From the NCBI GenBank assembly GCA_030431055.1, contig JAUIJA010000010.1:1-64000 (forward strand): DNA of 64,000 nt, read 5' to 3'. Within the stretch, counting starts at the first letter, position 1. Every line of letters begins with the position of its first letter. Shown piece after piece: positions 5,203 through 10,612 of the stretch. Source of the stretch: Bacteroidia bacterium. GTDB lineage: Bacteria > Bacteroidota > Bacteroidia > Flavobacteriales > Flavobacteriaceae. The notes beneath the pieces were generated by a model. The model made no database searches, was not told the DNA's origin, and worked only from the letters and a program-made list of their open reading frames with translations. A program made the translations under genes and the position numbers.

Positions 5203-6810
5203 TTATCCTTTTAACAAATTTATACTCACAGTTGCGTAATCTGTATTTGGGAATTTTTTGAAATATACTGGATCGGGTTGTAAACCTACTTCGGCTGCAA
5301 TTTTGTGTAATACATCAATTTCTACAATAAACTGGTCTGAAAATCCATGCGTAGCATCGTAAGCTGTTGCTGCGGTTTTTCCAATATTTTGTGAAGTTAA
5401 TTTTGGAGAGATTGTATGTAATTCAATCATTAACAATCCGAATTTTTCAACATAAGGCGACCATTTCTTGAAATGTTCAAATAAGTTTTCTTCGACCAAA
5501 TTATTAGAAATTCTTTCACCTCGATGTGCAAAAGCTCCTGTTGAAGTTGAAATTCTACTCGGATTCATATTTTTAGGGTTTTCCCATATTCTATTATGAT
5601 CTAAAAACGTTCTAACATTTAATAAATCACCTAATGAAATCTTATAATTTTCCATTAAATCGGCAGCGAGTAAATCAGGATTTCCAATATCTCCCCAAAC
5701 TACTTTTGCCCAAATATCGGCCTTGATTAAATTAGCACGTGTTACTTTTAAAGCAGCTTGGTTATAATCAGCACCAACTAAAAACAATGGATAATCATCA
5801 AGTAATTTCCCTCTTAAAGTATGACGTTCAATTACCTCAAAAATATGTTGAAGAAAAGCACCATTTCCACAACCCATATCTAAAATTCCTTTTGGCTGTA
5901 AATCAATTGGTTGATTAAATAATTCGATTATAATTTCATCAATTACTTTAAAATATGTTGCATGCGCTCCTCCACTTCCCCAAACATTCATTTCTCTGTT
6001 TACATGCTTTTCTTCTTCATGAATAGCTATTTCACGCAGTGCAGAAGCATTTCCAAACAACATTTGGTTCAGTTTTTTAAACATTGGTAAATAAGAAACC
6101 GTTACTCCATAAGCTGTAGCTCTTTTGGCAAAAAACAAACCTTTTTCGGTAAATTGATAATTTCCGTTTTTATGTATAAACCAATCTAAATGCGTAAAGA
6201 AATCTAAAATAACTTTGAACGTTTCGGGATCTTTGTGAAACTCTTGCGCTTTAAACGAAGTTTCCATAAAGTATTTATGAAACATTCCGGTCATTCCAAG
6301 GCTGACTACAATTGGCGCAACAAGATAACCTTCAATATGTTTTAAGATTTGCTGTTGAATTGCTAATTCATCTTTGTTTGCAGAAAACGTAATTCCGAAG
6401 TTGTTTCTAAACTTATCAAACAAGTTTGAAACTCTATTAATATGTGTGTTTTCAATTTGAACCGAAGTAAAAAAATCAGTTTCTTCGAGTATTTTAACTA
6501 CATCTTCATAAAGATAAAAGTTTGAAAAAACATATTCACTTTTACTATTAGTTGAAACTTGAACCGAGTTGTTTTGATTGTCAACCAAATAACTTAAAAA
6601 TCCTTGTGAAGCTAAAACTCTTAAACCAACATTTAAATAGCCCTCATTTGCGTTAAAATGATTTGAAAGTTCTTCTAATTTAACCGTTTCCTTTTCTAAT
6701 AGAAAATCTAAAATCCCTTTTTGTTTGAGATAATGAGCTGTTGGTGCAACGGCTAATCCGTCTAAATGCAAAAATATTTGTTGGCGTAATTCATTTTTAT
6801 CAATTACCAT
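5203..6810 (-). CDS. Class I SAM-dependent methyltransferase with two winged-helix segments
   Basis: A 535-residue protein. The SAM-binding motif I is ILDMGCGNGAF near residue 310, followed by FLVGADYNQAALKV (motif II region) and KVVWGDIGNPD. The N-terminal half holds two similar winged-helix-like segments, HLDGLAVAPTAHYLKQKGIL near residue 15 and HIEGYLVAPIVVSLGMTGMF near 155. These look like an internal duplication of the dimerisation domain seen in O-methyltransferases and polyketide-associated enzymes. The substrate is unknown. No biosynthetic cluster surrounds it, so a stand-alone role is likely. Confidence 0.75.
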   Translation of the reverse strand: MVIDKNELRQQIFLHLDGLAVAPTAHYLKQKGILDFLLEKETVKLEELSNHFNANEGYLNVGLRVLASQGFLSYLVDNQNNSVQVSTNSKSEYVFSNFYLYEDVVKILEETDFFTSVQIENTHINRVSNLFDKFRNNFGITFSANKDELAIQQQILKHIEGYLVAPIVVSLGMTGMFHKYFMETSFKAQEFHKDPETFKVILDFFTHLDWFIHKNGNYQFTEKGLFFAKRATAYGVTVSYLPMFKKLNQMLFGNASALREIAIHEEEKHVNREMNVWGSGGAHATYFKVIDEIIIELFNQPIDLQPKGILDMGCGNGAFLQHIFEVIERHTLRGKLLDDYPLFLVGADYNQAALKVTRANLIKADIWAKVVWGDIGNPDLLAADLMENYKISLGDLLNVRTFLDHNRIWENPKNMNPSRISTSTGAFAHRGERISNNLVEENLFEHFKKWSPYVEKFGLLMIELHTISPKLTSQNIGKTAATAYDATHGFSDQFIVEIDVLHKIAAEVGLQPDPVYFKKFPNTDYATVSINLLKG

Positions 6811-7641: not shown

Positions 7642-7655
7642 GTGACATTTGTTAC
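7642..7655. promoter_or_regulatory. Candidate Crp/Fnr operator upstream of its own gene
   Basis: GTGACATTTGTTAC is an inverted repeat GTRAC-N4-GTTAC with one mismatch. A TATCTTTA box (near TAnnTTTG) starts 24 bp after it at 7679. The centre would lie about 41-43 bp before the expected transcription start, the usual place for a class II activator. A second copy precedes the MBL-rhodanese gene. Confidence 0.5.
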
Positions 7656-7717
7656 ATAACTAGATATAAATAATAACTTATCTTTACTGAATCTAAAGCA
7701 GTAAATTTAATCACAAA

Positions 7718-8350
7718 ATGAAAGACATCTTAAAAGAAGCTTACGGTTACATTTTTGAAGAATCTTTATTAGAAGAAATAGCATCCGTTGCAACATATAA
7801 AGAATTTAAAGCCGATGATTATCTAATTGAAATTGGCGATTATATTAAAATGATGCCTTTGCTTTTAAATGGAGCAATTAAAATTCTTCGCGAAGACGAT
7901 AATGGCGATGAATTACTATTATATTTCTTAGAAAGAGGCGATACTTGCGCCATGACATTAACATGTTGCATGGGACAATCTAAAAGTAAGATTAGAGCAA
8001 TTGCTGAAACTAATGGTTCACTATTAATGATTCCTGTTGAAAAAATGGAAGAATGGCTCACAAAATATAAAACTTGGAGAAATTTTGTATTTGATAGTTA
8101 TAATATTCGCTTAAAAGAAATGTTAGAAGCAATCGACACCTTAGCTTTTATGAACTTAGATGAGCGTTTATATAAATATCTTACTGATAAAGCAAAAGTT
8201 TTAGGTGATACAGAAATACATAACACACATCAACAAATTGCTTACGAATTACATACTTCTAGAGTTGTTATTTCTCGTTTATTGAAAAGTTTAGAATTAC
8301 AAGGCAAAATTAAATTACATAGAAATAAAATAGAAGTCTTAGAGTTATAA
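7718..8350 (+). CDS. Crp/Fnr family transcriptional regulator
   Basis: A 210-residue regulator with an N-terminal cyclic-nucleotide-binding beta-roll (about 25-115), a long dimerisation helix and a C-terminal winged HTH (THQQIAYELHTSRVVISRLLKSLE, about 170-195). It lacks the N-terminal Fe-S cysteines of Fnr. Its only cysteines are C77, C83 and C84 in TCAMTLTCCMGQSKS, a position suited to thiol or persulfide sensing. That role is inference, supported by the sulfur genes downstream. It overlaps tauE by one base (TAATG). Confidence 0.88.
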   Translation: MKDILKEAYGYIFEESLLEEIASVATYKEFKADDYLIEIGDYIKMMPLLLNGAIKILREDDNGDELLLYFLERGDTCAMTLTCCMGQSKSKIRAIAETNGSLLMIPVEKMEEWLTKYKTWRNFVFDSYNIRLKEMLEAIDTLAFMNLDERLYKYLTDKAKVLGDTEIHNTHQQIAYELHTSRVVISRLLKSLELQGKIKLHRNKIEVLEL

Positions 8351-9138
8351 TGGAAATATTAGGATATTTTGTAGCATTACTTATTGGTTTAGTATTAGGT
8401 TTAACAGGTGGTGGAGGCTCAATGTTAGCAGTACCTGTTTTAGTTTACATAATGCTATTAGATCCTGTAATTGCAACTGGATATTCTTTGTTTATTGTAG
8501 GAACAACTTCAATTTTTGGGGCGTTTCAAAACTTTAGAAAAGGCTTTGTCGATATTCAAAAAGGATTTATTTTTGCTATTCCATCTTTTATAGGAGTTTA
8601 CTTAACCAGAAGTTTTATAGTTCCAATAATTCCCAATGAAATTATAACCACTTCTAATTTCACCCTTACAAAGGGAACTTTTTTAATGTTATTTTTTGCT
8701 GTAATTATGTTTTTAGCAGCAATGTCAATGTTAAAAAAGAAAAAAATTGAAGTAGCTGAAATTGCCGAAAAAGAAGCTTCAACTTTAGTTTTAATGCTAC
8801 AAACTTTTATAATTGGAATTGTAATTGGTTTAGTTGGTGCTGGTGGTGGTTTTCTTATTATTCCTTCATTAGTTTTATTTGCCAAACTTCCTATGAAGAA
8901 AGCTATTGGTACTTCATTATTAATAATTGCTATGAATTCATTGATAGGATTTATAGGTGATATTCAAAATTTAGAAATAAATTGGTTATTTTTACTAAGT
9001 TTTACAGCCATATCCATTATTGGGATATTCTTAGGAACATTTCTTAATAAATTTATTAACGAAAATCAGTTAAAAAAAGGCTTTGCTTATTTCGTTTTAA
9101 TTATGGCTTTTATAATTCTCTATAAAGAATTAATGTAA
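8350..9138 (+). CDS. Sulfite exporter TauE/SafE family permease
   Basis: A 262-residue membrane protein with about seven to eight hydrophobic helices. It shows the two glycine-rich TauE/SafE repeat signatures, GLVLGLTGGGGSMLAVPVL at the N-terminus and GLVGAGGGFLIIPSLVLF in the middle. The family exports or imports small organosulfur or sulfite anions. Its place between a Crp/Fnr regulator and a persulfide-dioxygenase-like enzyme supports export of sulfite made by the latter. The exact substrate is inferred from context. Confidence 0.88.
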   Translation: MEILGYFVALLIGLVLGLTGGGGSMLAVPVLVYIMLLDPVIATGYSLFIVGTTSIFGAFQNFRKGFVDIQKGFIFAIPSFIGVYLTRSFIVPIIPNEIITTSNFTLTKGTFLMLFFAVIMFLAAMSMLKKKKIEVAEIAEKEASTLVLMLQTFIIGIVIGLVGAGGGFLIIPSLVLFAKLPMKKAIGTSLLIIAMNSLIGFIGDIQNLEINWLFLLSFTAISIIGIFLGTFLNKFINENQLKKGFAYFVLIMAFIILYKELM

Positions 9139-9148
9139 CATTAGTTAC
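9135..9148. promoter_or_regulatory. Candidate Crp/Fnr operator upstream of the MBL-rhodanese gene
   Basis: GTAACATTAGTTAC is a perfect inverted repeat GTAAC-N4-GTTAC overlapping the tauE stop codon. TAATTTTA starts 23 bp after it at 9171 as a candidate -7 box. The spacing is within one base of that at the 7642 site. Confidence 0.5.
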
Positions 9149-9202: not shown

Positions 9203-10612
9203 ATGAAAGTAGAACAAATATATACAGGATGTATTGCTCACGCAGCTTACTATATTGAAAATAACGGAGAAGTAGCAATTTTTGATCCATTACGTGAAGT
9301 TCAGCCTTATATTGATAGAGCTGAAAAAGACAATGCAAAAATTAAATATATTTTTGAAACGCATTTTCATGCAGATTTTGTTTCGGGACATTTAGATTTA
9401 GCTAAAAAAACAGGTGCTGAAATTGTATACGGACCAACAGCAAAACCAAATTTCGACTGTATCGTTGCCGAAGACAATCAAGAGTTTAAAGTTGGAAACT
9501 ATACGATTAAAGCCATGCATACACCAGGTCATACATTAGAAAGTACAACATATTTATTAATTGATGAAAACGGAAATCAGCACGGAATTATCACAGGTGA
9601 TACTTTATTCATTGGTGATGTTGGTCGTCCTGATTTAGCTCAAAAACTTGTTGAAGACTTAACACAAGATGTTTTAGCTGAAAAACTTTATTACTCTTTA
9701 CGTAATAAAATCATGCCTCTTTCAGATGACTTAATAGTTTATCCAAATCATGGAGCTGGTAGTGCTTGTGGTAAAAACATGAGTAAAGAAACTACCGATA
9801 CTTTAGGCAATCAAAAAAAGACAAATTATGCTTTAAGAGCAGATATGACTTTAGAAGAATTCAAAAAAGAATTATTAGATGGGTTAACTCCTCCTCCAGC
9901 CTATTTTCCGCAAAATGTAATGATGAACATTCAAGGTTATGAAAGTTTAGATGATGTCATAGCAGAAGGAAATAAGCCGCTTACTCCAAAAGAGTTTGAA
10001 GCAGTTGCTAACCAAACAGAAGCGTTAATTCTAGACGTAAGAAACGAAAAAGACTTTGTAAAAGAACATATTCCTAGCTCGATATTTATTGGACTCCACG
10101 GACAATTTGCTCCATGGGTTGGAGCTTTAATAAAAGATGTAAAACAGCCTATTTTATTAATCACTCCAGAAGGAAAAGAAGAAGAAACCATCACACGTTT
10201 ATCTCGCGTTGGGTTTGATAATACCTTAGGTTATTTAAAAGGCGGAATTGAAGCTTGGAAATCAGCTGGTTTTGAAACCGATTCAGTAAAATCTGTTTCT
10301 CCAGAAGAATTTGCAAAACATTACGAAAACACTATTACTATTGATGCAAGAAAACCGAGTGAATTTCAGGCAGAAAAAGTTGAAAAAGCAATTAATATTC
10401 CTTTAGATTATATCAATGAGCACTTAGCCGAAGTACCAAAAGACGATACTTTTTATGTGCATTGTGCTGGTGGTTATCGCTCTGTAATTTGGGCTTCAAT
10501 TATGAAGTCTAGAGGTTATCACAATATGATAAATGTTGAAAAAGGTATGGCTGGAATTAGAAATACTGATATTCCACTTACAAATTATGCTTGCCCATCT
10601 ACATTAAAATAA
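9203..10612 (+). CDS. MBL-fold metallohydrolase with two rhodanese domains (persulfide dioxygenase-like)
   Basis: A 469-residue protein. The N-terminal metallo-beta-lactamase domain carries ETHFHADFVSGH, MHTPGHT and TGDTLFIGDVGRPD, the metal-binding pattern of ETHE1-like persulfide dioxygenases. Two rhodanese domains follow at about 265-355 and 370-465. The first lacks the active-site cysteine (LLITPEGKEEE where Cys is expected). The second has it in VHCAGGYRS, Cys421. Known relatives oxidise glutathione or other low-molecular-weight persulfide to sulfite. With TauE next door this suggests oxidation followed by export. In this organism the thiol could be bacillithiol, since bshB1 is in the window. 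Confidence 0.88.
   Translation: MKVEQIYTGCIAHAAYYIENNGEVAIFDPLREVQPYIDRAEKDNAKIKYIFETHFHADFVSGHLDLAKKTGAEIVYGPTAKPNFDCIVAEDNQEFKVGNYTIKAMHTPGHTLESTTYLLIDENGNQHGIITGDTLFIGDVGRPDLAQKLVEDLTQDVLAEKLYYSLRNKIMPLSDDLIVYPNHGAGSACGKNMSKETTDTLGNQKKTNYALRADMTLEEFKKELLDGLTPPPAYFPQNVMMNIQGYESLDDVIAEGNKPLTPKEFEAVANQTEALILDVRNEKDFVKEHIPSSIFIGLHGQFAPWVGALIKDVKQPILLITPEGKEEETITRLSRVGFDNTLGYLKGGIEAWKSAGFETDSVKSVSPEEFAKHYENTITIDARKPSEFQAEKVEKAINIPLDYINEHLAEVPKDDTFYVHCAGGYRSVIWASIMKSRGYHNMINVEKGMAGIRNTDIPLTNYACPSTLK

Follow-up and report, generated by a model that had tools for sequence, protein, structure and literature searches.

The window, a 64,000-nucleotide stretch of DNA from a flavobacterial genome, appears to hold the core of a conserved reactive-sulfur regulon. 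A Crp/Fnr-family protein encoded there would serve as a class II activator and as a cysteine persulfide switch, a reading to which we assign a probability of roughly 0.7. The genes and promoter elements on which this reading is built are listed below.

7642-7655, strand not assigned: operator 1, GTGACATTTGTTAC, preceding the regulator gene (putative autoregulation)
7679-7686, + strand: -7-like promoter box TATCTTTA, starting 23 nt past operator 1
7718-8350, + strand: Crp/Fnr-family regulator, 210 aa (Pfam PF00027 and PF13545; CRP-fold model)
8350-9138, + strand: TauE/SafE-family membrane exporter (Pfam PF01925, E 2.6e-45), same operon as the regulator
9135-9148, strand not assigned: operator 2, GTAACATTAGTTAC, preceding the PDO gene and overlapping the TauE stop codon
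9171-9178, + strand: -7-like promoter box TAATTTTA, starting 22 nt past operator 2
9203-10612, + strand: CstB-type persulfide dioxygenase (PDO; Pfam, with full-length matches to PDB 3TP9 and 3R2U)

Operators and genes in the window

An earlier note on this DNA had placed GTRAC-N4-GTTAC ahead of the regulator and MBL-rhodanese genes, each site followed after 22-23 bp by a TAnnTTTA box and 54-62 bp past its end by the ATG. Both sites were found, and they are the only exact matches within the 64 kb window. The boxes start at the distances listed above, operator 1 ends 62 nt from the regulator ATG (7718), and operator 2 ends 54 nt from the MBL-rhodanese ATG (9203). The exporter gene said to lie in the operon between the two sites was likewise identified, and its start overlaps the regulator stop codon. 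Most near relatives have GTAAC-N4-GTAAC or GTAAC-N4-GTTAC at the same position before the regulator, with an identical TATCTTTA box 23 nt on. In most close relatives this site is the one-mismatch form GTAAC-N4-GTAAC, and in a few it is perfect; the window has GTGACATTTGTTAC.

In the PDO, a metallo-beta-lactamase fold precedes two rhodanese domains. By sequence, the catalytic Cys is present in the second rhodanese domain (HCAGGYRS) and absent from the first. The match to 3R2U (3e-55 over residues 4-452), which is the S. aureus CstB protein, places the enzyme in the CstB type. At 5203-6810 the window also encodes a protein with all three AprA-type domains (PF23525, PF23589, PF23526), which stands alone in this flavobacterial genome.

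Conservation of the site ahead of sulfur genes

Motifs were counted in 80 loci, each with a gene for a relative of the regulator. These loci contained 93 exact GTAAC-N4-GTTAC sites, while 59 permuted pentamers gave a mean of 0.64 and a maximum of 5. The other spacers from 0 to 11 produced 0 to 5 matches in the same loci, and spacer 4 is thus essentially exclusive. The permuted-motif and spacer controls rule out a chance origin of the sites. Enrichment of the motif upstream of sulfur genes, which had been proposed as a check, was strongly positive.

When R/Y was allowed and regions of the window's own genome were added, 105 sites were placed. Repeats within genes were rejected as an explanation because only 1/105 sites lay inside an ORF of at least 100 aa. 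The downstream genes encode PDO (42), YeeE/YedE (14), TauE (11), SQR-like FAD proteins (8) and the regulator (5), and more rarely peroxiredoxin, a molybdopterin-type oxidoreductase or SulP. Names of target genes outside the window were assigned by reading the sequences.

Position of the site in the promoter

Bacteroidetes promoters have a -7 element of the form TAnnTTTR. In 63/83 non-redundant promoters such a box begins 21-23 nt past the site, 22 nt being the most frequent distance. From the site centre to the -7 box centre downstream the distance is about 33 nt in most cases. If the box centre is taken as -7, the site centre falls near -40, and the -33 element lies under the operator. This is a class II layout, which the earlier note had read from sites placed near -41 to -43, and from it we infer activation by the regulator.

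The same geometry could be read as that of a repressor released by persulfide. CstR, SqrR and BigR are repressors (PMC9774590; PMC12170894), and the site overlaps the position expected for the -33 element. However, the spacing of about 33 nt between the centres of site and -7 box, seen in most promoters, is the classical one for a class II activator, with the operator replacing the -33 element, and FisR is a known persulfide-responsive activator (PMC12170894). We consider repression improbable and prefer class II activation.

Evidence that the regulator reads the site

In genomes with a close orthologue of the regulator, 19/27 PDO loci had a site within 260 nt upstream, compared with 1/26 loci in genomes without one (Fisher p about 4e-7). 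The sole exception among the 26 was a Flavobacterium with a divergent, Glu-type orthologue, and 8/27 PDO loci in regulator-bearing genomes were without an exact site. Loci are partly related by descent, so this p-value and the one given below serve as guides. Whole-genome motif counts in 151 Flavobacteriaceae genomes were dominated by matches in coding sequences, and the reversed control was often higher. These counts were too noisy, and the test upstream of PDO was used instead.

The window regulator and its close relatives have the recognition helix SRVVISR, and other relatives have SREVISR. At least one GTGAC half-site was present in 10/10 sites of SREVISR (Glu-type) regulators versus 6/99 in Val-type loci (Fisher p about 1e-11, computed with 4/105). 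Residue 183 (Val/Glu) covaries with the third base of the half-site (A/G), and the same Val/Glu change separates NtcA (GTA) from CRP (GTG). Judging from this covariation, the window regulator almost certainly reads the GTRAC-N4-GTYAC site. The genome's two other clear Crp paralogues were rejected as readers of the site because their recognition helices, TATESCIRLL and TSRPTLNILL, differ.

Cysteines in the cyclic nucleotide cassette

Pfam scores for the regulator were 1.6e-10 (PF00027) and 6.6e-8 (PF13545), both over the cut-off, and its structure model (pLDDT 86.9 overall) gave CRP-fold matches with a TM of about 0.8. The protein has the N-terminal cNMP-binding beta-roll and C-terminal Crp-type HTH of the Crp/Fnr superfamily. 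By those defining features that can be tested in a sequence, it is a member of the superfamily outside CRP, FNR and NtcA. Regarding FNR, no N-terminal cluster cysteine ligands of the Fnr type are found in the regulator sequence. C77, C83 and C84, which the earlier note had pointed out, are its only cysteines. An FNR-like paralogue with N-terminal Cys is encoded elsewhere in the genome (contig C7). ATGAC-N4-GTCAT palindromes were seen at C1:6565 and C7:120285, the latter near the FNR-like regulator, and are perhaps the FNR site of this group.

NtcA of cyanobacteria is a class II activator with Val at the specificity position of its recognition helix and a GTA-N8-TAC site. The window regulator is similar in both respects, with Val in SRVVISR and a site of the GTA-N8-TAC type. 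Its score against the NtcA equivalog TIGR03697 was 48 bits, far under the cut-off of 245. NtcA senses 2-oxoglutarate, controls nitrogen genes and is without the C77/C83/C84 set.

In a profile alignment to CRP, the cAMP ligands E72 and R82 are not kept and are replaced by M79 and K89. C77 falls on I70, and C83 and C84 fall on F76 and E77 of the phosphate cassette. The model has a helix at residues 78-86, with a pLDDT of 71-75 in the cysteine stretch. All three cysteines are invariant in an alignment of 32 diverse orthologues. With the ligands replaced and cysteines in the cassette, cyclic nucleotide binding is unlikely, cAMP included, and a thiol switch formed by the cysteines is likely. An ordinary cAMP- or 2-oxoglutarate-type relative of CRP or NtcA, with the sulfur genes under nutrient control, would explain the CRP/NtcA-like fold and recognition helix. 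Given the lost ligands and a cassette filled by invariant cysteines, we regard this alternative as very improbable and retain the thiol switch.

Regulators of the Lutibacter branch are an exception to the cysteine pattern. They keep C77, have lost C83 and C84 and have gained a cysteine at position 90. C77 looks like the essential thiol, and in this branch the cysteines may react differently or a different thiol-reactive species may be the signal. These regulators precede YeeE/DUF6691, not PDO, and often a molybdenum-cofactor gene. The neighbourhood (L075, L079-L082, L084, L085, L087, L092) often has, beside YeeE/DUF6691, another Crp-like gene together with one for a MoaA-like protein. A link between sulfur transport and the molybdenum cofactor is possible there.

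Further sites in the genome

The window's genome contains 8 GTRAC-N4-GTYAC palindromes, compared with 3 for the reversed control, and 7/8 are found in gaps ahead of genes, most of which have sulfur or redox functions. Two of the eight are the operators of the window. One precedes a rhodanese gene elsewhere in the genome. On contig C31, a palindrome (L093:9688) heads a run made up of a small ORF, cydAB and an SQR-like gene, which diverges from a TonB-receptor run, and another (L093:14950) precedes a TolC-MFP-RND operon that includes a DUF2892-like gene. This arrangement suggests that a sulfide-resistant oxidase and an efflux system belong to the same regulon. A further palindrome (L093:19424) separates a cytochrome c peroxidase gene from a divergently oriented heme-protein gene and has a -7-like box on both sides. 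The palindrome at L095:6944 precedes the gene for a small HMA protein (CGGC; CxxC), directly behind YeeE/YedE-DUF6691 genes. The palindrome at C47:144164, between convergent genes, is probably due to chance and was discarded. The regulator probably acts on the rhodanese, cydAB-SQR-like, TolC-RND and HMA genes as well. A genome scan that included the box and allowed up to 2 mismatches gave 31/32 hits versus 18/15 in the control, which was too noisy for naming targets. A search for DsrE in the window's own genome found none.

The earlier note had described a compact unit for sensing, oxidation and export. That description holds insofar as the PDO gene and the regulator-TauE operon share matched operators. 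The unit is not self-contained, however, but part of a scattered regulon that also includes YeeE/YedE, SQR-like, rhodanese, cydAB and RND/TolC genes.

Some of these targets raise the question of the signal. With the same regulon and site, the cysteines could instead be ligands of a metal (copper, zinc or an Fe-S cluster) or a sensor of oxidants or electrophiles, the sulfur genes being one output of such a response. Cytochrome c peroxidase with the heme protein, the HMA CxxC protein, cydAB, TolC-RND and peroxiredoxin would all be suitable targets for such a protein, and some relatives adjoin chrA or peroxiredoxin genes. The commonest targets are nevertheless by far PDO, YeeE/YedE, TauE and SQR-like genes, and proteobacterial relatives are found mainly ahead of DUF2892-YeeE-PDO operons. 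Many relatives also have just two bare cysteines (C-x5-C), a small number for holding a cluster, although one could be shared across a dimer. A metal or redox signal is therefore unlikely, if less so than repression, and a persulfide signal is favored.

Proposed mechanism

We propose that a Crp/Fnr homodimer binds GTRAC-N4-GTYAC near -40, at promoters with a -7 box and no free -33 element. It would activate its own operon (regulator plus TauE) and the CstB-type PDO gene. Persulfide, which SQR-like enzymes would make, or polysulfide would modify C77 together with C83 and/or C84, perhaps as a di-, tri- or tetrasulfide bridge. This modification would switch the dimer into a DNA-binding or activating state. 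PDO and rhodanese would then convert persulfide to sulfite and thiosulfate, and TauE and YeeE would move sulfur species.

Comparison with known persulfide regulators

CstR of the S. aureus cst operon controls a gene set of TauE, CstB-type PDO, rhodanese and SQR. As proposed for the window regulator, it is a cysteine-based sensor over TauE/PDO/rhodanese/SQR genes, but it belongs to the CsoR family and is an all-helical tetrameric repressor, whereas the window regulator is of the Crp/Fnr type and its site has class II spacing. CstR, SqrR/BigR and FisR are the persulfide regulators described for such genes (PMC9774590; PMC12170894; PMC7315123). SqrR/BigR, of the ArsR family, sense persulfide through two cysteines and regulate PDO, YeeE/YedE and SQR genes (PMC12170894, PMC7315123). 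They are repressors of an unrelated fold, while the window regulator has a CRP fold and is a probable activator. FisR is a cysteine-based activator of sulfide oxidation genes (PMC12170894) and needs sigma-54 and ATPase activity, in contrast to the window promoters, which have a Bacteroidetes-type TAnnTTTG box. The nearest report concerns Acinetobacter, in which a Crp-like protein is persulfidated, with unknown effect (PMC7315123). In the literature searched, which left out preprints and most subscription journals, no dedicated Crp/Fnr persulfide regulator was found, nor was a persulfide-responsive PDO regulator in Bacteroidota.

Members of the persulfide-regulator class control PDO, SQR, rhodanese or YeeE genes, which for the window regulator is seen in binding-site position only. 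They also have at least two conserved cysteines that could be bridged, and these are present in the 32 orthologues, the Lutibacter branch being the exception. The window regulator apparently represents an undescribed class of sulfur switch, with persulfide sensing and activation as its presumed properties. Of 151 Flavobacteriaceae genomes sampled, almost every one from a different genus, 118 had a good orthologue (E < 1e-60). If the proposal is true, a very common group would have this protein as its general switch for sulfide stress. The regulator family offers a ready-made regulon, a code for binding in which Val/Glu goes with A/G, and a spacer change from N4 to N3 that occurs in nature.

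Relatives beyond Bacteroidota

The best PDB match of the regulator, by both sequence and fold, was 3DV8, a Crp/Fnr protein of Eubacterium rectale from structural genomics. The two proteins have C77 and C83 (C-x5-C) in common. 3DV8 differs in having no assigned function and no C84, and its closest plasmid relative does not sit in a sulfur operon. A plasmid search with the 3DV8 sequence returned relatives in Paracoccus, Thioclava, Ruegeria, Tritonibacter, Azospirillum, Thiothrix and others. Those examined carry C-x5-C, and in the Rhodobacterales and Chelativorans relatives examined this pair makes up the only two cysteines. Among the Firmicutes relatives examined, no clear sulfur operon neighbourhood was found.

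In Rhodobacterales the regulator gene is followed by DUF2892, YeeE, DUF6691, an MBL-fold protein, and a tyrosine-phosphatase-like sulfurtransferase/FAD protein or SulP. Plasmid relatives of Rhodobacterales and others that adjoin DUF2892-YeeE-DUF6691-PDO operons come with GTGAC-N3-GTCAC sites. The plasmid loci contained 15 exact GTRAC-N3-GTYAC sites, mostly in the gap between regulator and operon or before the upstream gene, and none at spacers 1, 2 or 5-8. All three N4 sites in the plasmid set came from two Bacteroidota plasmids.

We lean, with somewhat less confidence than for the window itself, towards a Crp/Fnr class that crosses phyla, in which the cAMP cassette has become a dithiol (C-x5-C) persulfide switch. 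It would activate PDO/YeeE/SQR operons through GTRAC-N4-GTYAC in Bacteroidota and GTGAC-N3-GTCAC in Proteobacteria, where other bacteria use CstR, SqrR/BigR or FisR. The GTGAC half-sites with spacer 3 (L130-L136, L198-L209; mostly Proteobacteria) form a site one base pair shorter than the usual Crp/Fnr dimer site.
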